23,928 nucleotides of DNA, taken from positions 1-23,928 of IMG/VR virus record IMGVR_UViG_3300005853_000019; one strand, 5' to 3'. Made by a program: the position numbers and the translations under genes. A model generated the notes under the pieces. The model saw only the letters and a list, made by a program, of their open reading frames with translations. It was not told where the DNA came from and ran no database searches. Shown here in pieces: positions 85-23,928 of this stretch. Within the stretch, counting starts at the first letter, position 1; every line of letters starts with the position of its first letter. The DNA is from a virus.

Positions 85-516
85 CTCTCAATTCCCTTTG
101 TGGGATTTCTTTGAATGCAACCTATGAGCAGGCTCTCAAAGAATATCTGGAGATGATTTGTGGCTCTCAATTCCCTTTGTGGGATTTCTTTGAATGCAAC
201 TGGAATAGGCTGGTGTCAGGGGTAAGAAGGATTGATAGTTTCTCTCAATTCCCTTTGTGGGATTTCTTTGAATGCAACATGGTGAGGTGTTTGTGGTGAG
301 CAAAGTAATGAACCTGTTTGACTCTCAATTCCCTTTGTGGGATTTCTTTGAATGCAACCCTCGGAAATGTCCAAAGTGCAAGAACTATCCTACGGCTAGC
401 TCTCAATTCCCTTTGTGGGATTTCTTTGAATGCAACTGGTTCTCTGTTATTGTTTGTGCTATCTGCTCTAGGTATGTTTCTCTCAATTCCCTTTGTGGGA
501 TTTCTTTGAATGCAAC
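85..516 (-). CRISPR. CRISPR array, 6 identical 37-nt repeats and 5 spacers
   Basis: Six identical 37-nt repeats lie at 85-121, 164-200, 242-278, 322-358, 400-436 and 480-516. On the plus strand each begins CTCTCAATTCCC and ends TTTGAATGCAAC. The spacers are 42, 41, 43, 41 and 43 nt. Read on the minus strand, the repeat starts GTTGCATTC and ends GGAATTGAGAG, so the last eight bases give an ATTGAGAG handle like the ATTGAAA(G/C) tags of archaeal type I and III crRNAs. That places the leader to the right of 516. The repeat contains a short CCC-ACAAA-GGG stem-loop. No cas gene is in the window. I saw no match of any spacer elsewhere in the window. Spacers 1 and 4 have open plus-strand frames that look like protein-coding sequence, spacer 4 with a CPKC motif. 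Confidence 0.97.
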
Positions 517-2878: not shown

Positions 2879-3967
2879 ATGGATTGGCGGTATGGCTGGC
2901 AGGAAGAGGCATATGAGGCATGGGTTGAGGCGGGCAGAGTCGGGCTCGTGATAGCCCCAACGGGTACGGGTAAGACCGAGCTCTTCATCAGGGTTATGCG
3001 GGAGTACAGGCGGAGCTACTACATCGCACCCACAAGGGCCGCAATAGAGGACATGGAGAAAAGGCTCAGGGCCCGGCGGGTCTCAGGAGCCGTCCTCATG
3101 ACCTATGTGGCGGCAGCCGAGTACCAGCCCTGGCTCATGGAGTCGCAGGAGACGCTTACAGGGGAGAGGCCGAGGGCCCTCGTCGTCCTCGACGAAGCCC
3201 ATCACCTCAGCGCACCCACATGGTCTAGGATACTGATAACCCTCGGCGACGTGGATGTAATAGGCGGGACCGCCACAGCCGAGGGCATACCCGCATGGCC
3301 CCCGGTCGTATACGAGATAGGCATGGACAGGCTTAGACACGTACTCCCGCCCGTCGACGCCGTCCTAGACATAGCGCCCGCAACAGCCCGCCAGCTAGCG
3401 GAGTACCGGGACCTCACGGAGAGGATAGAGGCCCTGAGAAAACGGCTTGGGGCCCTGCTTGCGGAAGGCGCACCCGAGGAGGCCGTCAGACGTGTCCTGA
3501 TCCAGATAGCCCACCTCGAGAGCGTGAAAAGGGCCGTAAGCATGCAGAACACCCTAAAGCTCGGGGCCGCAATAAGGCGGATGGCCCAGCACGGAAAGAC
3601 GATAACCTTCGTCGAAAACATAGAGCAGGCGAAGGCGCTTGAGAAAATGGCTAGGGACGCCGGCCTCGACGCCTTGGCGGTCTACAACGGGGGTCCCGGT
3701 CTAGCTGAGGCACGGCTGCACCGGCACATAATAGCTGTTAGAATCCTTGACGAAGGCGTCAACATGCCCGAGGTCGAGGCCCTCATATTCCTCACAAACC
3801 CGAAGAGGATGAGGCGGGCCGTCCAGAGGGTCGGCAGAGGGCTGCGGGGCGACAAGGTCCTCAAAGCCTACGTCGTCACAGTCTTCGACGAATGCCAAAG
3901 CGTCAAAACATACCTAGAGCAGATAGCACAAACAATAACAGAGAACCACATATATTCATACAAGTAA
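2879..3967 (+). CDS. Superfamily 2 DEAH-box helicase, 362 aa
   Basis: This is an ATP-dependent nucleic-acid helicase or translocase with two RecA-like lobes. Visible motifs in order are a YGWQEEA segment upstream of the P-loop, Walker A APTGTGKT (26-33), motif Ia PTR (51-53), motif II DEAH (105-108), motif III GTAT (130-133), motif V RILDEGVNMPEVE and motif VI QRVGRGLR (316-323). At 362 residues it is a compact helicase core with no obvious accessory domain; a charged helical insert (ERIEALRKRLGALLAEGAP) joins the lobes. The order and spacing resemble the XPB/UvrB-like DEAH helicases of archaea and viruses. It is a single gene beside the putative origin region, so a role in replication initiation or repair is plausible but inferred. 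The ATG is supported by the leaderless promoter. Confidence 0.93.
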   Translation: MDWRYGWQEEAYEAWVEAGRVGLVIAPTGTGKTELFIRVMREYRRSYYIAPTRAAIEDMEKRLRARRVSGAVLMTYVAAAEYQPWLMESQETLTGERPRALVVLDEAHHLSAPTWSRILITLGDVDVIGGTATAEGIPAWPPVVYEIGMDRLRHVLPPVDAVLDIAPATARQLAEYRDLTERIEALRKRLGALLAEGAPEEAVRRVLIQIAHLESVKRAVSMQNTLKLGAAIRRMAQHGKTITFVENIEQAKALEKMARDAGLDALAVYNGGPGLAEARLHRHIIAVRILDEGVNMPEVEALIFLTNPKRMRRAVQRVGRGLRGDKVLKAYVVTVFDECQSVKTYLEQIAQTITENHIYSYK

Positions 3968-7752: not shown

Positions 7753-9026
7753 TGCAGGAGTTTAGGTCTAGGATCGAGGACTTGGTTGAAACAGAGGAGT
7801 TGCACATACGCCAGGAAGTGGCGTTCGGTAAATATGCCGCACTCATGCCGGATGAGGCCCGCCAACACCCAGCCAAGTACAACACAGAACTCGTTGAATT
7901 CCTCATTGAGAAATACACGCAACCCGGTGACATGGTGGCCGACATAATGGCCGGCACAGGCGTGCTGGGCGTTATAGCGGCCCTCAAAGGCAGGAATGCG
8001 GTGCAGGTCGAGATAGAACCCAAGTATATGGAGTGGATGGAGAAGGCCCGGGAAAATGTTGAGAAACTGAACACACTCACCCCGAAGGGCCGCATAGTCA
8101 ACATCCTCGGCGACAGCCGTAGGCTGACCGAGTTGCTGGCGGAGCGTGTCGGCACAATTATTACCAGCCCACCCTTCGGTGACACAAACCTAGCCGCAGG
8201 CGATATAGAGAGGAGGAGGGAGAGGTTGCTTCAGGCGGGACACGATCCCTCGGATTTTTTAGGCGGCTCGGCTAGGAACGCCATCCTCAAGCACTACGGG
8301 CAGGCCGATGCCGTTATTGTATCGCCCCCCTACTCAGACTCCAACCCCTTCGACAAAAAAGACACTGAGTTCTGGAAAAGGGCCCACGAGTTGGGTAACA
8401 GGTGGACACCTGATCCACCGCTGGGGGTACGTAACAAGAATCTCTCACAAGACAACATCGGCAACCTACCGCTCGGCCCCGTGGATGCCGTGATAACATC
8501 ACCTCCGTTCGGTGAGGCCAACCGTGGCGGGGGGATAGCCGTCAAGGGCTACGAGGGGAAACATGGAAGAGATCCTGAGCTGCACCTGCGGCATGACAGG
8601 CCGCTCAGCGACAACCCCGACAACATAAGCAACCTAACATTCGGAGACACCGCACAACTAGGCCAGTCACAGGAAGACCTGAAACAGCACTACAAGAGGT
8701 TGCTGACGAAGAAGGGCAAGCCGACGTACCTGAGCGAGATGTTGCTCATCTACAAAAACATGTACGATGTTCTGAAACTAGGCGGTGTGGCCTGTGTCGT
8801 GGTAAAGCCCTTCATCAAAGATAGAAAGGTAGTGGATCTCCCATACATAACATGGTGTCTGCTTGAATCAATCGGTTTCACCCTAGAAAAGACATATAAG
8901 TGGAGGATAGAGAGGCCAAGCTTCTGGCGGATACTATATGCTAAGAAAAACCCCGGCGTACCATTGGTGGCACATGAATACGTCGTGGTCGTCAGAAAAC
9001 CCGGAGGTAGCGGGCTATGGGGGTGA
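7749..9026 (+). CDS. DNA amino-methyltransferase with three SPP(F/Y) motifs, 425 aa
   Basis: This is an S-adenosylmethionine-dependent N6-adenine or N4-cytosine DNA methyltransferase. The AdoMet-binding motif is DIMAGTGVLG (~65-74) and the acidic strand-2 motif is VQVEIEPKYMEWM. The catalytic-type motif IV occurs three times: TSPPFGDTN (~139-147), VSPPYSDSN (~191-199) and TSPPFGEAN (~250-258). Each is preceded by a hydrophobic strand, and the last two by DAVI. Normally one SPPY-type loop is present. The C-terminal GGVACVVVKPF and a final strand complete the fold. ATG at 7749 is coupled to the microprotein stop; a GTG at 7737 is in frame. Its end overlaps the ATPase gene by 10 bases. Confidence 0.9.
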   Translation: MMQEFRSRIEDLVETEELHIRQEVAFGKYAALMPDEARQHPAKYNTELVEFLIEKYTQPGDMVADIMAGTGVLGVIAALKGRNAVQVEIEPKYMEWMEKARENVEKLNTLTPKGRIVNILGDSRRLTELLAERVGTIITSPPFGDTNLAAGDIERRRERLLQAGHDPSDFLGGSARNAILKHYGQADAVIVSPPYSDSNPFDKKDTEFWKRAHELGNRWTPDPPLGVRNKNLSQDNIGNLPLGPVDAVITSPPFGEANRGGGIAVKGYEGKHGRDPELHLRHDRPLSDNPDNISNLTFGDTAQLGQSQEDLKQHYKRLLTKKGKPTYLSEMLLIYKNMYDVLKLGGVACVVVKPFIKDRKVVDLPYITWCLLESIGFTLEKTYKWRIERPSFWRILYAKKNPGVPLVAHEYVVVVRKPGGSGLWG

Positions 9027-11127: not shown

Positions 11128-11143
11128 TGCTACTCAAGCACTA
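11125..11143. terminator. Bidirectional stem-loop at convergent stops
   Basis: TAGTGCT (11125-11131), loop ACTCA, AGCACTA (11137-11143) is a perfect 7-bp inverted repeat. It contains the TAG of the HTH gene (11125-11127) and the stop of the leftward gene (11130-11132), so one hairpin can end both transcripts. Confidence 0.6.
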
Positions 11144-11891
11144 ATCGCTGGAAATTGAACCGCACCGTCCTCGGCGCTAAGTCTAATGCCGTTATTTCGG
11201 CCCTATACCCGTACTTCTCAAGCTTCTTCGGCAACCTGATGACAGGTGGTTTGCCCGGCTCATGTGGGAGCAGGCTGACATCCTCCTCTCCAGCGTTCAG
11301 CACCGTCCACGGGCCGTCGGGGCTTAGCTTCTCATACTCGACTATCCTGATGCGGTCCGGCGACCCTAGGGGTTCCACCTCAACCCTGCCCTCGACTTCC
11401 TGAACCTTGTCGGATGTGAACTCCACTAGGACGTATGGCGTGTCCGTCTCATCGATCGCCAGCTCGCCCTCATGCGGGATCACCTGAAACTTGGCTACTG
11501 CAACTGTGGGCATGATCTCCTCTATTACGACTTCGAGGCTAAAAAGTCTAGCGATGGCGGTCAGGAGAACCACATCCAGCCCCCTACGGATCCACATGGC
11601 TGCCTCCGCTGTGGCCATCTTTGTTGCGGCCAGCCCCTCGTAGTCACGTGAAATCCTGTAAAGCCGTTCAGCGGCGCTTAGGTAGGGCATCTTCATAAAC
11701 GGGTTGGTGATGTTTTCGTCGACGAGTGCTTTGGCACGCATGAAAACCTCCTGATGCCGCATCTGCTCTAGGCCCCCTAGCTCGGCCTGCACGGGCCTTG
11801 AGAGGCTGTAGGCCCTCGCAACGGCCTCGGGTTCGGTCTTCTTCAGCCACTTCCTAAGCCTCTTGGCGGCTGCCGCCATAGCAATACACAT
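11130..11891 (-). CDS. Two-domain virion-like protein, 253 aa, with shared helical module
   Basis: The N-terminal ~125 residues are helical and clearly related to the 122-aa protein at 14114-14482. Both have the pattern TNPxxxxxYLxxAxxLYR, a gap containing Gly, then AxWxxRGLD. The C-terminal ~125 residues are beta-rich (VAVAKFQVIPHEGELAID, YVLVEFTSDKVQEVEGRVEV, PPVIRLPKKLEKYGYRAEI) and have no counterpart in the 14114 protein. A plausible reading is a structural protein with a core helical module plus an exposed beta domain. The start may be ATG at 11891 or ATG at 11879; TATA-like ATAAAA at ~11911-11916 favours 11891. The gene is convergent with the HTH gene and divergent from the FkbM gene. 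Confidence 0.75.
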   Translation of the reverse strand: MCIAMAAAAKRLRKWLKKTEPEAVARAYSLSRPVQAELGGLEQMRHQEVFMRAKALVDENITNPFMKMPYLSAAERLYRISRDYEGLAATKMATAEAAMWIRRGLDVVLLTAIARLFSLEVVIEEIMPTVAVAKFQVIPHEGELAIDETDTPYVLVEFTSDKVQEVEGRVEVEPLGSPDRIRIVEYEKLSPDGPWTVLNAGEEDVSLLPHEPGKPPVIRLPKKLEKYGYRAEITALDLAPRTVRFNFQRLVLE

Positions 11892-14113: not shown

Positions 14114-14482
14114 ATGGTAAGAGCTGCATCGATCCGAATACGGAAGTACACGCAGAAGTTCGACCCGACAGTAGTCAGCGCTAGGTTCACAGCCCTGAAG
14201 GATCTGGCGGTAGAGCAGTTCCAGACACATGCAGCCGACCTAGAGGGGATGGAGGTGCTTGTCAAGACAGCGATCAGCGACAGAGTGACCAACCCACTTG
14301 AGGTCCCGCAGTACCTAGACTTCGCAAGGGAGCTGTACAGACTCACGAAGACCCACAGCGGTAGGGTGTTGGTGGCTGAGGCGAACGCTTATAAGGCGAA
14401 GTGGACAGCGAGAGGGCTCGACCCAGACATCCTCGACCTGATCATCGGCCTCTTCGGCATAGGTGGAGTGGTCTACGCCTAG
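14114..14482 (+). CDS. Helical-module protein, 122 aa, candidate major structural protein
   Basis: No named family is recognised. It is basic at the N-terminus (VRAASIRIRKYTQK), then entirely helical, ending in a hydrophobic stretch (ILDLIIGLFGIGGVVYA) that could insert in a membrane or pack in a particle. It shares TNPxxxxxYLxFAxxLYR and AxWxxRGLD with the N-terminal half of the 253-aa protein at 11130-11891, and FAREL...GR...AE...GLD with the C-terminal end of the 387-aa protein at 15576. A strong AT-rich promoter (TTTATTTATAG at ~14070), a CCGAGGT ribosome-binding site and a dedicated stem-loop/T-run terminator suggest high expression from a single-gene transcript. A major capsid or coat role is inference. 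Confidence 0.8.
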   Translation: MVRAASIRIRKYTQKFDPTVVSARFTALKDLAVEQFQTHAADLEGMEVLVKTAISDRVTNPLEVPQYLDFARELYRLTKTHSGRVLVAEANAYKAKWTARGLDPDILDLIIGLFGIGGVVYA

Positions 14483-16778: not shown

Positions 16779-17303
16779 GTGGTCGACGTATCCTCGGTGA
16801 GGAACATACTCTCACAGATCAGGCGGGTCGTGACAGGGGACGTAATACTGCCCGAGGACCACAACCTACAGACCGACGCACTCACAGCCCTCACCGATGT
16901 TGTCGAAGCCATACCTGAGCCTCCGCCTCCGCCAACGCCCCCACCGCCACAGGTACTAATCCTTTCCGGCGGCGATGCCGTAAACTCGCTGTGCTGGGTC
17001 GGCATCGGAAACATCATCGGCTTCTTCACGTTACCGTTCGATGCCAAAATCAAGCGATTCGTATTCTACGTTGGGTTCAACAACAGAAACGGGCCTGCGC
17101 TAATCAGCCTGAGACATGCGGGGGGTCCCGTCATCGACAACATCACCATACCAGCCGGCGGTACAGGAGCGTATTCGACGGCCCTGATCGAATACCTATT
17201 GCCAGCAGACAACGCCCTAACCGTCGTACTGGCCGATCTTGGGGGGACACTTGGAGACATATTCCAGTGGTTCTACAACATACATGTGGAAAGAAGTACA
17301 TAG
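16779..17303 (+). CDS. Beta-sandwich virion-like protein, paralogue 1, 174 aa
   Basis: Residues 1-47 form a helical stalk (VSSVRNILSQIRRVVTGDV). A Pro-rich hinge follows (PEPPPPPTPPPPQ, ~48-60), then a beta-sandwich domain of ~110 residues. That domain is clearly related to the one in the 18967 protein: both have LPxxxKxK followed by a strand, an RH pair, then IPAGxTGxY/F and an EY/DY-x-x-P segment. Such head-stalk proteins often decorate capsids or form fibre tips. There is no signal peptide. GTG at 16779 fits the upstream TATA. It is convergent with the beta-propeller gene. Confidence 0.8.
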   Translation: MVDVSSVRNILSQIRRVVTGDVILPEDHNLQTDALTALTDVVEAIPEPPPPPTPPPPQVLILSGGDAVNSLCWVGIGNIIGFFTLPFDAKIKRFVFYVGFNNRNGPALISLRHAGGPVIDNITIPAGGTGAYSTALIEYLLPADNALTVVLADLGGTLGDIFQWFYNIHVERST

Positions 17304-18966: not shown

Positions 18967-19473
18967 ATGGAGATGCCGTTCACACTCCCGCCGAGGCGGA
19001 ATCCCGGCGATGTCATCAGGTCTGGCGAGTGGAACCAGATAATAGACGACCTCGACGACCTTAACACACGGCTACAGGCTGTTGAAGGGGCAACAGCAGG
19101 CTACATATTCGTCTTCCCCCTAGAGGGTGTTGAGCTAATTCCGGGGGATGTAGTGGATCTCCAGCCCTTCGGGACGTGGTACTGGACGGGCCGTGGCCTA
19201 GTGTTGCCGGTTGGGGTGAAGCTGAAGAAGTTAGTCATCGATGTGGAGTCCAACACCACTGATGGGGATGTGGTCGTAACCGTCAGGCATAACGAGACCA
19301 CTGTGGCGGCTACCGTGAACATCCCCGCAGGAGCCACAGGTGTCTTCACAGCCACGATAGCCGACTACTACATTCCGGAGGGAGATCGGCTCAGTCTCAC
19401 GATAGATGTGTCTGCCCCCACAGCAGGCAGTATAAAGTTTGGCTCCGGCTCCCTACTCGGCTCGCTCGGCTGA
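18967..19473 (+). CDS. Beta-sandwich virion-like protein, paralogue 2, 168 aa
   Basis: The N-terminus PPRRNPGDVIRSGEWNQIID is the kind of attachment phrase seen at the start of phage and archaeal-virus fibre proteins (PGDV...W). A short helix (DLDDLNTRLQAVEG) follows, then a beta-sandwich of ~115 residues paralogous to the 16779 protein (LPVGVKLKKLVIDV, VTVRHNETT, VNIPAGATGVFTATIADYYI). It lacks the long Pro hinge of its paralogue. ATG at 18967 lies 24 bases after the TATA; a second ATG two codons later is possible. It probably assembles on the particle surface with the propeller protein encoded opposite. Confidence 0.8.
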   Translation: MEMPFTLPPRRNPGDVIRSGEWNQIIDDLDDLNTRLQAVEGATAGYIFVFPLEGVELIPGDVVDLQPFGTWYWTGRGLVLPVGVKLKKLVIDVESNTTDGDVVVTVRHNETTVAATVNIPAGATGVFTATIADYYIPEGDRLSLTIDVSAPTAGSIKFGSGSLLGSLG

Positions 19474-19828: not shown

Positions 19829-20200
19829 GTGGCGACACCCGTCATCCCTGACGAGGCTATACCGAAAAACCCGCCAAACATAAAAGAGGTAACATTCGGC
19901 GGGCAGGTTGTCGTAGTACATGAGATAAACGTGTTGCAGGAGATATATGGCCGCAAGCTGTTCATGGTCGCCTACCACATAACCGACAACACTAGGCGTG
20001 ACGCTCAGGGCCAGCCGCTTAAGACACCTGTTGCACACCTCTTCGTCGCAGAGCCTGAGATAACGCCGGAGGAGAAGAGGGGGAAGACCCTAGCCGACAT
20101 AGCCAAGCTCTGGCAGGACAAGCTCACTGAGGCGGTGAAGTCCGAGCTAGAGAAAGCTGTGAAAATATACCGTGCAAACGTCTCCGTCTTCATGAGGTAG
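19829..20200 (+). CDS. Hypothetical protein preceding the giant gene, 123 aa
   Basis: The family is not recognised. Strand-rich residues ~15-75 (IKEVTFGGQVVVVHEINVLQ, KLFMVAYHITDN, VAHLFVAEPEIT) are followed by a helical, charged C-terminus (WQDKLTEAVKSELEKAVKIY). GTG at 19829 follows the TAA of the previous gene by no bases and has a long G-rich ribosome-binding stretch. The giant gene begins one base after its stop. In tailed phages, small proteins just before the tape-measure gene act as assembly chaperones; the position here is similar, but sequence similarity is not claimed. Confidence 0.72.
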   Translation: MATPVIPDEAIPKNPPNIKEVTFGGQVVVVHEINVLQEIYGRKLFMVAYHITDNTRRDAQGQPLKTPVAHLFVAEPEITPEEKRGKTLADIAKLWQDKLTEAVKSELEKAVKIYRANVSVFMR

Positions 20201-20201
20201 C

Positions 20202-23200
20202 ATGGAGGCCGTAACAGTAGTCATAGCTGGCGAGGAGGTCCCGCTCGTCAGGCTAGGCTACGACGATGTAGAGCGGGCTATACAGGACTGGCGGATAGCG
20301 GGTATAACGGATCCACTCGGGCAACTAATAGCATGGCTCCGTGATCAGGTGGCGGCCCTCATCGGGGCCGTCAGGGATGCGATACTCGGGGCCCTCAGCA
20401 CCGTCTCCTCAGCTATAACATCCGCAATCTCCGGGGCAATAACAGCGATAACCAACGCAATTAGCTCAGGCGTCAGCAGCCTAGTCAACACAATAACCTC
20501 GGGACTCACGGGGCTTGTCGGGACGATCAGCGGCATCCTATCATCAGCCTTCAACACCCTCTCATCAGCCCTCACAGCCGCAATATCCGGAATAGCGAAC
20601 GCACTCAGCACAGCAGTGACAGCGATAACCAACGCCATATCCGCAATAACCGGGGCAATATCGTCCGCCATATCCGGGGCCGTCAACGCAATCACTGGAG
20701 CTATATCCGCAATAGCGAGTACAATATCGTCCGCCATAACGGGTGCAGTAAATGCGATAACCGCCGCAGTATCCGGGATAGCTAACGCCATCACATCGGC
20801 CCTCAACTCCATAGTAAACACGTTGACATCAGCACTCTCAGGTCTGGCTAGTGCGGTTTCCTCAGCCATCAGCTCGATAGCGAACACCATCACATCGGCC
20901 CTGAGCGGGCTTGCGAACACAATAGCCTCTGGGCTAAACTCCGTTATCAACGCCATAACCGGGGCTCTCGGCACAGTCGTCGCCTCGATAACAGCCGCAA
21001 TCTCCGGGCTGGTCTCGCAACTCAGCGGTCTATTGTCCTCGCTCGCCGACCGCATAACCTCCACGATACGGTCCATCATAAAGGGGGTGTCCGATGCCGT
21101 CACATCGCTGGGCCAGAGGATTGTTGAGGGCTTCACAGGGGCCTTCACAGCCCTGACCAACACCCTCCTGAGCATATTCAGCAACATAACAAGCAACCTA
21201 GCCAAGGTTGCGGTCGCCTTCGAGGGATTCGTCAACAGCATTGCACGGTTAGGCGACCTCATAGCAGGGCCGTTGAAGGGCATAGCCGACGCCCTCAAAG
21301 GCTTCTTCAAGGATCCTGTGGGGGTTCTGACAAAGGCCCTCAGCGACGCATGGAAGGGCCTCGTGGAGCTGACCAAACCGATATGGCAGCCGCTTGTGCA
21401 ATTCCTCGACACCGCATTGAATTTCTTCCAGCAGGTGTGGACAAACTTCGCAAAGGCCATCGGGGACGCATGGGCCTCGTTCGTCAAATTCACCGAGCCA
21501 ATATGGAAACCCATCAAGGACTTCATAGACTTCGTCTCCAAGACCGTCTGGGATGGCATAAACAGCTTCATCAAGCTCTTCACCGAGAGGCTTGAGGCTT
21601 TCTTCAAGGACCCGATAGGGTTCTTAACATCGCAGATAGCCGCCGCATGGTCCGGATTCGTCGAATTCACACGTCCGATATGGGAGCCAATCAAAAAGTT
21701 CCTAGACGATGCGGGCAAGTTCCTCACAGACCTGTGGAACGGGTTTACCAGGGCCCTCGGAGACGCATGGAACGCACTCATCGAGTTCACTAGGCCCGTC
21801 TGGGAGCCGATCAGAAACTTCTTCGACACCGCTTTGAAAAACCTTCAGGAATTGCTGAGAGACCCGATCGGTGCACTCTCAAGCGTGCTGTCCTCCATGT
21901 GGTCGGGCTTCGTCGAATTCACAAAGCCTATCTGGGAGCCGATTGGGAAATTCCTAGACAATGCCAACAAGTTCTTCAGCGACCTGTTCAAGGCACTCTC
22001 CGAATGGGGCGGTGTGATTACAAAATTTATCGCAGAAGACATACCGAGGTTCTTCACACAGAGCTTGCCGAAATTCCTAGTCGAAGACTTGCCGAATATC
22101 CTGTTCAACATCGGCAAAACCGTCCTCAGCGGCCTACAGACCATAGGTGACGCAATATTCAACGCCATCAAGTTCGTCGGCGAGCTGTTGCTGAGGGCTG
22201 TCGTGGCCCTGATAGATGTCGGCAGGGCCGTCTTGGAGCCGCCGGTCAGAAGCCTGCTGAACCCTGCGATAGACGCCATGAAAGAAGCTGTTAAACCCGC
22301 CTCACCGCCGCCGGAGGTAAAAGAGCTCGTAACCGTCTACCAGAAACTGGTCATGGAGCAGATTGAGAAGACTGTGAAGCAGGTAAGGAAACATGATCAG
22401 GTGGCGCCAGCACTGGTAGGTAGCTTCACAGGGCTGGCAATATCGCTGGGCCTGATATATGCGTCTGCACAGACCGGCGGCCTGCTGGCGGACGCAGTCC
22501 ACCCGCTGAAGAACCTAGGGGTGAGGAAGACGGTCAAATCGCTCATAGACAACCTTGGCGGCTTCTTCATCATGTCCTCGCTCTCGGCGTCATTCACCTT
22601 CTTCGTCATACACCCGATGCTGAGGCGTTTCTACCAGAAGCTGCTGACACCTGTAATACCCGGCCCCGACACAATGACAACCATGTACTTCAGACAAACC
22701 TTCACCGAGCAATACTACCACGAACACATGCTTGAACTCGGCTACAACGACACCTTCATCAACGGCTTCATCGACGTAAACGCCAACATACCGACCGTGG
22801 AGCAAATGATCCGCCTAGTCGGCTCAGGGATGATGGAGAGAAGTGAAGCACTTAAACAACTGAAGAAGGCGGGCTGGATAGGGGATAGGGGCTGGCTCGG
22901 CCCTGAAACAGTCTTCGAGGGCTTCAAGGACCCACCATCAATAGAACGGGCCTTCGAAATGCTCTTTCTCGGCCTGCTGACACAGGAGGAGGCAAAACGC
23001 ATCTATATGTGGCGGGGCCGTCACGAGGACTACTTTGAACAGGAGCTGAAAAGCAGCTACAAGATGCCGCCCATCAGCGACCTCATAACCTTCGTCATCA
23101 GGGAGGTCATAGAGCCGGAGGACTTCAGAACCCTCGTCCTCAGACAAGGGCTACAACCCAAGGAAGTGATCAAAGAGGTGCTGGGCAGGGCGCCGCAGAT

Positions 23201-23928
23201 GCCGCTCATAGGCGGCGGCAAGGGTGAGGGTGACTGGGCTGACGCATACTGGGAGGCCCACTGGCGGTTGCCATCCCTAGAGCAGGTGTTCGAGTTCTAC
23301 AACAGGGCCGTTGTCGGCATGGTCAGCGTCGGGGGTACACCGTTCAACATATCCCCCACAGAGGCGGAGAAGATAGTGATGGCGTACACGACCATCCAAG
23401 ACTACAAGCCGGAGCCGAGGGAGCTGACAGGCTTCATCAAATCCAAGACCGGCATCAGCAAGATACCTGTGGCCGACGAGCAACTGGTCCGCTCACTCAG
23501 GTTCAGGATACTGACACGGATCGAGAGCAGATTCGTCAGGCGGTGGGGCCTCATATCCACAGAAGACTACATCAGACTCGGCACAGCACAGGGCATAGAC
23601 CCATACATCAAGATCAAGACACTCGACGGCTCTGAGATAACCATGCTGGACGCACTAACCACAGCCGAATTCCTACAAGACCTGCTGGAAGAGAGGACAG
23701 CACTAAGAACACAGCTAATCAACAGCTTCGTCAAAGGCTTCAACATCAAGTCCAAGATAATCTACATCAAGGACAAGCCGGGACAGGTGGAGGAAAGAGA
23801 GTTTGAGTCCCTGAATCTGGCCGACGCACTCAAAATCCTCCGGTTCAGGCCCGAGGAGGTCTCATGGCTTGTGGCACAGGCCCTCATAAGGCGGGAGATA
23901 GAGATCCGAGAGGACAGGATAAAGGGTG
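20202..23928 (+). CDS. Giant repeat protein, tape-measure-like, incomplete at the right edge (more than 1242 codons)
   Basis: The frame is open from ATG 20202 to the last base of the window with no stop, so the true length is unknown. Domain order: ~1-53 N-terminal cap; ~54-339, consecutive 11-residue repeats such as ISGAITAITNA, ITSALSGLANT and LSGLLSSLADR; ~382-600, five modules with FVEFT(K/R)PIWEPI-type cores; ~733-757 and ~786-806, hydrophobic segments likely to cross a membrane; ~860 to the end, helical repeats starting P(S/T)(I/L/V)E(Q/R). Hendecads make extended right-handed coiled coils, and regularly spaced Trp/Phe repeats plus membrane segments are typical of tail tape-measure proteins. 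I therefore call it tape-measure-like, without naming a family. It starts one base after the 123-aa gene. Confidence 0.85.
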   Translation, partial: MEAVTVVIAGEEVPLVRLGYDDVERAIQDWRIAGITDPLGQLIAWLRDQVAALIGAVRDAILGALSTVSSAITSAISGAITAITNAISSGVSSLVNTITSGLTGLVGTISGILSSAFNTLSSALTAAISGIANALSTAVTAITNAISAITGAISSAISGAVNAITGAISAIASTISSAITGAVNAITAAVSGIANAITSALNSIVNTLTSALSGLASAVSSAISSIANTITSALSGLANTIASGLNSVINAITGALGTVVASITAAISGLVSQLSGLLSSLADRITSTIRSIIKGVSDAVTSLGQRIVEGFTGAFTALTNTLLSIFSNITSNLAKVAVAFEGFVNSIARLGDLIAGPLKGIADALKGFFKDPVGVLTKALSDAWKGLVELTKPIWQPLVQFLDTALNFFQQVWTNFAKAIGDAWASFVKFTEPIWKPIKDFIDFVSKTVWDGINSFIKLFTERLEAFFKDPIGFLTSQIAAAWSGFVEFTRPIWEPIKKFLDDAGKFLTDLWNGFTRALGDAWNALIEFTRPVWEPIRNFFDTALKNLQELLRDPIGALSSVLSSMWSGFVEFTKPIWEPIGKFLDNANKFFSDLFKALSEWGGVITKFIAEDIPRFFTQSLPKFLVEDLPNILFNIGKTVLSGLQTIGDAIFNAIKFVGELLLRAVVALIDVGRAVLEPPVRSLLNPAIDAMKEAVKPASPPPEVKELVTVYQKLVMEQIEKTVKQVRKHDQVAPALVGSFTGLAISLGLIYASAQTGGLLADAVHPLKNLGVRKTVKSLIDNLGGFFIMSSLSASFTFFVIHPMLRRFYQKLLTPVIPGPDTMTTMYFRQTFTEQYYHEHMLELGYNDTFINGFIDVNANIPTVEQMIRLVGSGMMERSEALKQLKKAGWIGDRGWLGPETVFEGFKDPPSIERAFEMLFLGLLTQEEAKRIYMWRGRHEDYFEQELKSSYKMPPISDLITFVIREVIEPEDFRTLVLRQGLQPKEVIKEVLGRAPQMPLIGGGKGEGDWADAYWEAHWRLPSLEQVFEFYNRAVVGMVSVGGTPFNISPTEAEKIVMAYTTIQDYKPEPRELTGFIKSKTGISKIPVADEQLVRSLRFRILTRIESRFVRRWGLISTEDYIRLGTAQGIDPYIKIKTLDGSEITMLDALTTAEFLQDLLEERTALRTQLINSFVKGFNIKSKIIYIKDKPGQVEEREFESLNLADALKILRFRPEEVSWLVAQALIRREIEIREDRIKG
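20361..21218 (+). repeat. About 24-26 tandem hendecad-encoding units
   Basis: From codon 54 the protein advances in exact steps of 11 residues (33 bases). Codons 76-339 give 24 units without a phase break: a hydrophobic residue at position 1, usually Ser/Thr at 2, Ala/Gly at 4, hydrophobic at 5, and often Asn/Thr/Ala at the end. The DNA units vary in codon use, so selection acts on the protein pattern. Confidence 0.9.
21345..22010 (+). repeat. Five Trp-rich protein modules
   Basis: Cores read LVELTKPIWQPL, FVKFTEPIWKPI, FVEFTRPIWEPI, LIEFTRPVWEPI and FVEFTKPIWEPI, each after an (A/M)W dipeptide and each followed by a helical spacer. DPIG(A/F)L-type phrases link some of the modules. The spacing varies from about 40 to 60 residues. 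Confidence 0.9.

Follow-up and report, generated by a model that had tools for sequence, protein, structure and literature searches.

What would a filamentous virus without a tail do with a giant protein built like a tail tape measure? The question is raised by the virus record IMGVR_UViG_3300005853_000019, analysed here over its entire public length of 23,928 bases (the window, which has no end repeats), at whose right-hand end lies the gene for a giant helical rod protein that an earlier note, made from the letters alone, had assigned to a tape-measure system. The window is a fragment of the genome of an unclassified adnavirus, an archaeal virus that is filamentous, has no tail and carries linear DNA, and the giant protein is probably an oversized counterpart of the P1070 terminal protein of rudiviruses, which would sit at the virion tip and act in attachment or DNA entry. 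In the literature searched we found no description of a tape-measure-type rod in such tip proteins.

A giant rod protein encoded by an adnavirus

The rod protein gene and its parts are as follows, with positions given in the window.

20202–23927, plus strand: giant rod protein gene, 1,242 codons open in the window with the 3′ end open; 1,620 amino acids (aa) in the relative described below
20334–21206, plus strand: hendecad rod, aa 45–335, 26 repeats in a single register, charge-free over aa 60–282
21234–22016, plus strand: Trp-module rod, aa 345–605, five PIWEP-type motifs, Trp spacings of 11, 18 and 33
22401–22457, plus strand: hydrophobic segment 1, a possible membrane segment, aa 734–752, Kyte-Doolittle 1.88
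22554–22610, plus strand: hydrophobic segment 2, a possible membrane segment, aa 785–803, Kyte-Doolittle 1.78, conserved in the relative
23049–23693, plus strand: C-terminal domain common to a tailed-virus protein (P0010), aa 950–1164

The hydropathy of aa 41–330 oscillates with a single, sharp period, 3.67 residues (11/3), at a power of 90, where 200 shuffles reached a maximum of 10, and that of aa 331–700 has a period of 3.68 (power 36). The earlier note had counted at least 24 phase-perfect 11-residue repeats; 26 do stand in one register, with hydrophobic occupancies of 0.89, 0.77 and 1.00 at the three core positions, although at the level of single residues the description was slightly overstated, the full hydrophobic core being present in 17 of the 26. 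Between aa 60 and 282 there is not one D, E, K or R. The remainder of the anatomy outlined in that note was recovered too: in a single open frame lie five PIWEP modules, two hydrophobic stretches, which the note took for membrane segments, and a C-terminus of predicted helical character. The PIWEP-type motifs, two exact and three variant, start at aa 393, 433, 492, 532 and 576, and their spacings of 40, 59, 40 and 44 residues amount to 10.9, 16.1, 10.9 and 12.0 turns, near whole turns at 3.667 residues per turn. The two hydrophobic segments were called by the Kyte-Doolittle scale alone, on which other stretches of the protein come out nearly equal (1.76 and 1.68). The AlphaFold model of the C-terminus, made for the 877 aa of the relative's complete copy, is poor, with a predicted local distance difference test (pLDDT) score of 41, and was kept out of fold searches. 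As a straight helix rising 1.5 Å per residue, aa 41–605 would reach a length of about 85 nm, whereas the rod of a rudivirus would reach about 23 nm. An antisense frame of 494 aa opposite the rod (20345–21829, minus strand) is most likely a mere shadow that arises from the repetitive codon pattern.

A single relative was identified, the contig IMGVR_UViG_3300025067_000003 of 32,667 bases, reached both from the C-terminal half of the rod protein (aa 701–1242) and from the capsid protein; no second one came up in the phages collection, the viral contigs (single-sequence and alignment queries) or the genome contigs. Its rod protein has the same architecture and 62% identity to the window copy and is complete, ending at 1,620 aa, and so shows where the frame stops, a point that the earlier note had proposed to seek by extending the contig. 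The window's own frame runs past the 3′ limit of the record, and its copy is short of about the last 335 residues. The two copies align over aa 1–392 without a gap at 60% identity, third codon positions differing at 60% of sites, and their sole difference in rod length is a single block of exactly 44 residues, equal to four hendecads or 12 helical turns. Most of the window genes tested match the relative at E ≤ 1e-3, some across short stretches only. Exact inverted repeats of 4,296 nucleotides (L006, 1–4296; L007, 8373–12668) close off both ends of the relative, which is therefore probably complete as a linear genome; these inverted terminal repeats (ITR) are longer than any we know of in rudiviruses and may be an effect of assembly. 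About 1.3 kb 3′ of its rod gene the relative encodes a trypsin-like serine protease (Pfam PF00089, phrog_20754; L002, 13935–14576).

The identity of the virus is given by two capsid proteins.

14114–14482, plus strand: major capsid protein 1 (MCP1) with the adnavirus helical fold, 122 aa; Pfam Sulf_coat_C, phrog_7510, Foldseek
11130–11891, minus strand: major capsid protein 2, a paralogue of MCP1, 64% identical to the relative's copy

MCP1 matches Pfam Sulf_coat_C at 4e-4 (under the family cut-off) and phrog_7510 at 7e-5, with marginal sequence matches to the capsid proteins of SSRV1 and SIRV2, and when its model (pLDDT 72) was submitted to Foldseek the top seven hits were capsid proteins of SIRV2, SSRV1, AFV1 and YSIRV with probabilities of 0.77–1.00, all others lying at 0.1 or lower. 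With MCP1 as query the relative's copy of capsid protein 2 is found at 3e-12, and the paralogy is also seen in the alignment; capsid protein 2 in addition extends about 130 aa further at its C-terminus, a part that is conserved in the relative and absent from MCP1. Possession of two paralogous capsid proteins is a mark of several adnavirus families (PMC10848311). To the capsid fold and the paralogue pair the relative adds a third adnavirus trait, the linear genome with ITR found in the Ligamenvirales.

The earlier note had instead entertained an unexpected head-tailed lineage, which would possess a genuine tail tape-measure protein. Two profile matches point in that direction, since the rod protein hits PHROG tape-measure profiles down to 1e-48 and an ATPase at 9017–10297 matches a PHROG labelled terminase large subunit (3e-17). 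The Pfam match of this ATPase is, however, to HerA DUF87, and no ortholog of it was found in the relative. The note had also looked to terminase, portal and HK97 capsid genes in the full genome to settle the matter and took a lack of them to speak for its refutation; most of the larger proteins of the ITR-bounded relative were scanned against Pfam and PHROG, and it is to these scans that all statements below on genes unseen there refer; neither a portal nor a terminase, an HK97 capsid or a tail protein turned up. Given the adnavirus capsids, the relative's scanned proteins and the HerA-like nature of the ATPase, a head-tailed lineage is not supported, and we accord it a negligible probability. 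Annotation as a tape measure from profiles only can mislead for tailless viruses.

Hendecad rods in the proteins of known adnaviruses

Rods of the same kind occur in adnaviruses that are already well known. The P1070 proteins of all seven rudiviruses examined start with a hendecad rod (about aa 11–160, power 33–41), as does ORF56 of SIFV (aa 1–200, power 39.6). When 450 open reading frames from 39 loci, not randomly sampled, were scanned at a threshold power of 22, the only ones to exceed it were the P1070s, SIFV ORF56, the two rods described here, tape measures of tailed phages and one antisense shadow opposite a tape-measure gene. Phe spacings in the rods of the rudiviruses ARV3 and MRV1 favour 11, 18, 22 and 40, and the rudivirus P1070 profile matches the tape measure of 80alpha via the rod (1e-5). 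Across genomes of 20.3–35.5 kb the rudivirus rods align without internal indels, and this fixed length, along with the 392 residues that align without a gap between the window and its relative, is counted in favour of a tip protein. P1070 as a whole shrinks as the genome grows in the seven rudiviruses (L008–L014), with an r of −0.95 among sequences that are related and not independent.

Likeness to P1070 may extend beyond the rod. The relative's C-terminal half aligns with rudivirus P1070 at 41.2 bits, the best of 1,000 local-shuffle decoys reaching 34.3; hmmsearch joins the two in three collinear segments at 2e-4 (best decoy 0.019) and hhalign at 5e-4 (reversed controls 0.2–0.3), scores that are at most suggestive of homology. 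P1070 is thought to form terminal filaments that recognise the host (PMC10848311), and SIRV2 attaches to pili by its terminal fibres (PMC4456609). Reading the giant protein as a terminal protein is the most economical choice. In such a protein the hendecad and Trp modules would together make an extended helical rod, which, like tape-measure proteins, is probably an oligomer and which would act as a fibre or as a stored conduit; the two hydrophobic segments may touch the viral or the host membrane, while docking to the nucleocapsid end would fall to the helical domains of the C-terminus. A tip structure built in this way would most likely serve attachment to the host and aid DNA entry.

Several observations weigh against a P1070-type tip protein. 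Queried alone, the C-terminal half does not retrieve phrog_7334, the family of P1070, even at E values as high as 10, so the scores on which homology to P1070 rests are weak, and the window's incomplete C-terminal copy does not rise above decoys when compared with P1070. The Trp modules and the hydrophobic segments are without an obvious equivalent in P1070, no comparable long rod was found in AFV1 and AFV9, and virions of the lineage have yet to be seen. AFV1 ORF807 and AFV9 ORF1170 were considered as counterparts and rejected, having neither a rod nor similarity.

The strict conservation of rod length and phase, with a difference between window and relative of exactly 44 residues or 12 helical turns, might alternatively be taken to mean that the rod is a strict ruler that fixes how long an appendage of the filamentous virions, tail-like or at the tip, becomes. 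Conserved phase is, however, equally expected from any coiled coil, and neither a tail tube nor another tail gene was seen in the relative, so that we think such a ruler clearly unlikely. That the rod measures the virion body is contradicted by analogy: virion length is known to track genome length in these helical viruses, and since rudivirus rods stay constant while the genome, and hence the virion, varies in length, the rod would not set virion length. The fallback offered in the earlier note, an independent protein that determines a length or forms a membrane channel, may still apply.

Yet another conceivable function is that of a lipid-binding amphipathic 3-11 helix coating a viral envelope in the manner of apolipoproteins and perilipins. 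Pfam matches to ApoLp-III, Apolipoprotein and Perilipin, weak and every one below cut-off, agree with this, as does the pair of capsid paralogues, which enveloped adnaviruses also have. The polar face of aa 60–282 is nevertheless entirely uncharged, and the same kind of rod is found in rudiviruses, which are not enveloped; a coating helix is accordingly very improbable. A cell-surface adhesin, which the earlier note had named as an example of a refuting fold, was rejected, the only match being one to HiaBD2 below threshold (E 0.005) and the gene lying within the virion gene cluster.

Likeness to tail tape-measure proteins

What is supported of the proposed tape-measure system is the likeness of the rod, in its 11/18 Trp spacing, its [KR]PIWEPI motif and its matches to PHROG profiles and 80alpha, whereas the evidence points away from a tail ruler. 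Between aa 384 and 602 successive Trp residues are 11, 18, 11, 11, 15, 33, 11, 18, 11, 11, 33, 11 and 24 residues apart, and 11 of these 13 adjacent spacings belong to the set 11, 18, 22, 29 and 33, a number reached by none of 20,000 random placements. The tape measures of TP901-1 and p2 follow an 11/18 rule for aromatic residues, where repeats of 40 residues are parsed as 11-11-18 (PMC5099701). Against the tape measure of 80alpha, whose structure is solved, the relative's rod protein gives a match at 6e-10, and a scan of viral contigs for [KR]PIWEPI returned 24 contigs besides the relative, about seven of which hold the motif inside tape-measure-like proteins (L058 and L064 being near-identical), most of the 24 not being tape measures. 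These alignments are nevertheless largely pattern-driven, because shuffles that preserve the register reproduce much of the score. The hendecad part scores 76 bits against tape measures, where the shuffles have a median of 59 and a top of 74; the Trp part scores 81 and 94 bits, where the shuffles top out at 67 and 70, against targets that had been selected by [KR]PIWEPI, and with the motif masked 1–4 of 500 shuffles equal the real score. The likeness may be a convergence on the rod pattern.

A further link to tailed viruses lies in the C-terminal domain at aa 950–1164. A scan for WAxxYWxAHWxLP returned one further contig, L052 (9 kb), which has portal and HK97-type capsid genes by Pfam and a terminase-like C-terminus judged by eye, and which encodes the following.

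L052, 3972–5285, minus strand: 437-aa tailed-virus protein (P0010), between the portal and capsid genes

It matches the C-terminal domain at 53.5 bits by BLASTP (decoys up to 31.6) and at a P of 6e-9 by hhalign, a match that owes part of its strength to the search motif itself and falls to E ~0.01 when the motif is masked. Searches of the phages collection, PHROGs and Pfam with the 437-aa protein gave no match.

Taken as a device for DNA delivery, the rod protein would be a tape-measure-like conduit stored at the tip and released at attachment, whose hydrophobic parts enter the host membrane so that the genome can pass. Its 11/18 Trp rule and hydrophobic regions are like those of the TP901-1 tape measure, which is credited with a role in DNA transit (PMC5099701). 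The match of the rod to 80alpha and the C-terminal domain held in common with a protein encoded beside a tailed-virus portal fit as well. Against this stand the register-preserving shuffles, which yield much of the similarity, and the fact that we know of no lumen in adnavirus virions able to hold such a rod. A delivery device overlaps with a P1070-type tip protein and may be a second role of the same molecule; we regard it as possible, if on balance unlikely. We consider it doubtful that the tip protein of P1070 type is truly homologous to a tape measure or was acquired as a copy of one, and hence that adnaviruses and tailed viruses have a delivery module in common. Were it so, two realms would use one kind of DNA-delivery device, with a C-terminal domain found also beside the portal of a tailed virus. 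The delivery of DNA by filamentous archaeal viruses is still puzzling (PMC4456609). The preferred reading of the giant protein as a P1070-type tip protein suggests for its part that the tip protein of filamentous archaeal viruses carries a tape-measure-type hendecad rod, strictly conserved in length and largest in this clade, and it opens that protein to experiment in the laboratory system of SIRV2.

Neighbouring genes and comparison with known systems

Two small proteins are encoded in the cluster of the rod gene.

19829–20200, plus strand: 123-aa protein, immediately 5′ of the rod gene, 71% identical to that of the relative
18967–19473, plus strand: 168-aa protein in the rod gene cluster, with the N-terminal start motif GDVIRSGEWNQIIDDLDDL

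A short N-terminal motif, either GDxIxPEDHNxQT or GDVIRSxEWNQIIDDL, is common to small proteins beside the rod gene (window 16779–17303 and 18967–19473; relative, L002, 4166–5074, 5074–5976, 6009–6467 and 6531–7046), the first type being present in three tandem copies in the relative; it may serve surface proteins of the virion as a shared anchor. At the other end of the window (85–516) is an array of clustered regularly interspaced short palindromic repeats (CRISPR), with six 37-nucleotide repeats and five spacers. Spacer 5 (437–479) is identical in 43 of 43 bases to window 3906–3948 in the helicase gene, and when the repeat is read as ending ATTGAGAG the protospacer is preceded by TCA, making a TCN protospacer-adjacent motif plausible. 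A search of the genome contigs with the repeat core, made to name the host, returned none.

Among known systems, the tape measures of siphophages (TP901-1, p2, 80alpha gp57 and those of L057, L058 and L078) share with the giant protein the hendecad period, the 11/18 Trp spacing, [KR]PIWEPI and hydrophobic segments, but here the capsids are those of an adnavirus, the C-terminus is different, and tail, portal, terminase and HK97 genes are unseen in the relative. SIFV ORF56, of the Lipothrixviridae, has the N-terminal hendecad rod and begins, like P1070 of SIRV10, with MSFLLNLG; it differs in its length of 591 aa, in lacking Trp modules and in its C-terminus. P1070 of rudiviruses (phrog_7334; ORF1070 in SIRV2) is likewise encoded by adnaviruses and combines an N-terminal hendecad rod of period 3.65–3.67 with a long helical-repeat C-terminus of weak collinear similarity. 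Its rod has, however, about 150 residues against about 560 here (aa 41–605), its full length is 1,058–1,115 aa against 1,620 in the relative, and it has neither PIWEP modules nor, in its C-terminal half, two paired hydrophobic segments. At the level of the whole virus the window may be likened, by description, to Chiyouvirus of the proposed Chiyouviridae, which likewise possesses a pair of capsid paralogues and a homolog of P1070, together with mini-CRISPR arrays that hold self-targeting spacers (PMC10848311).

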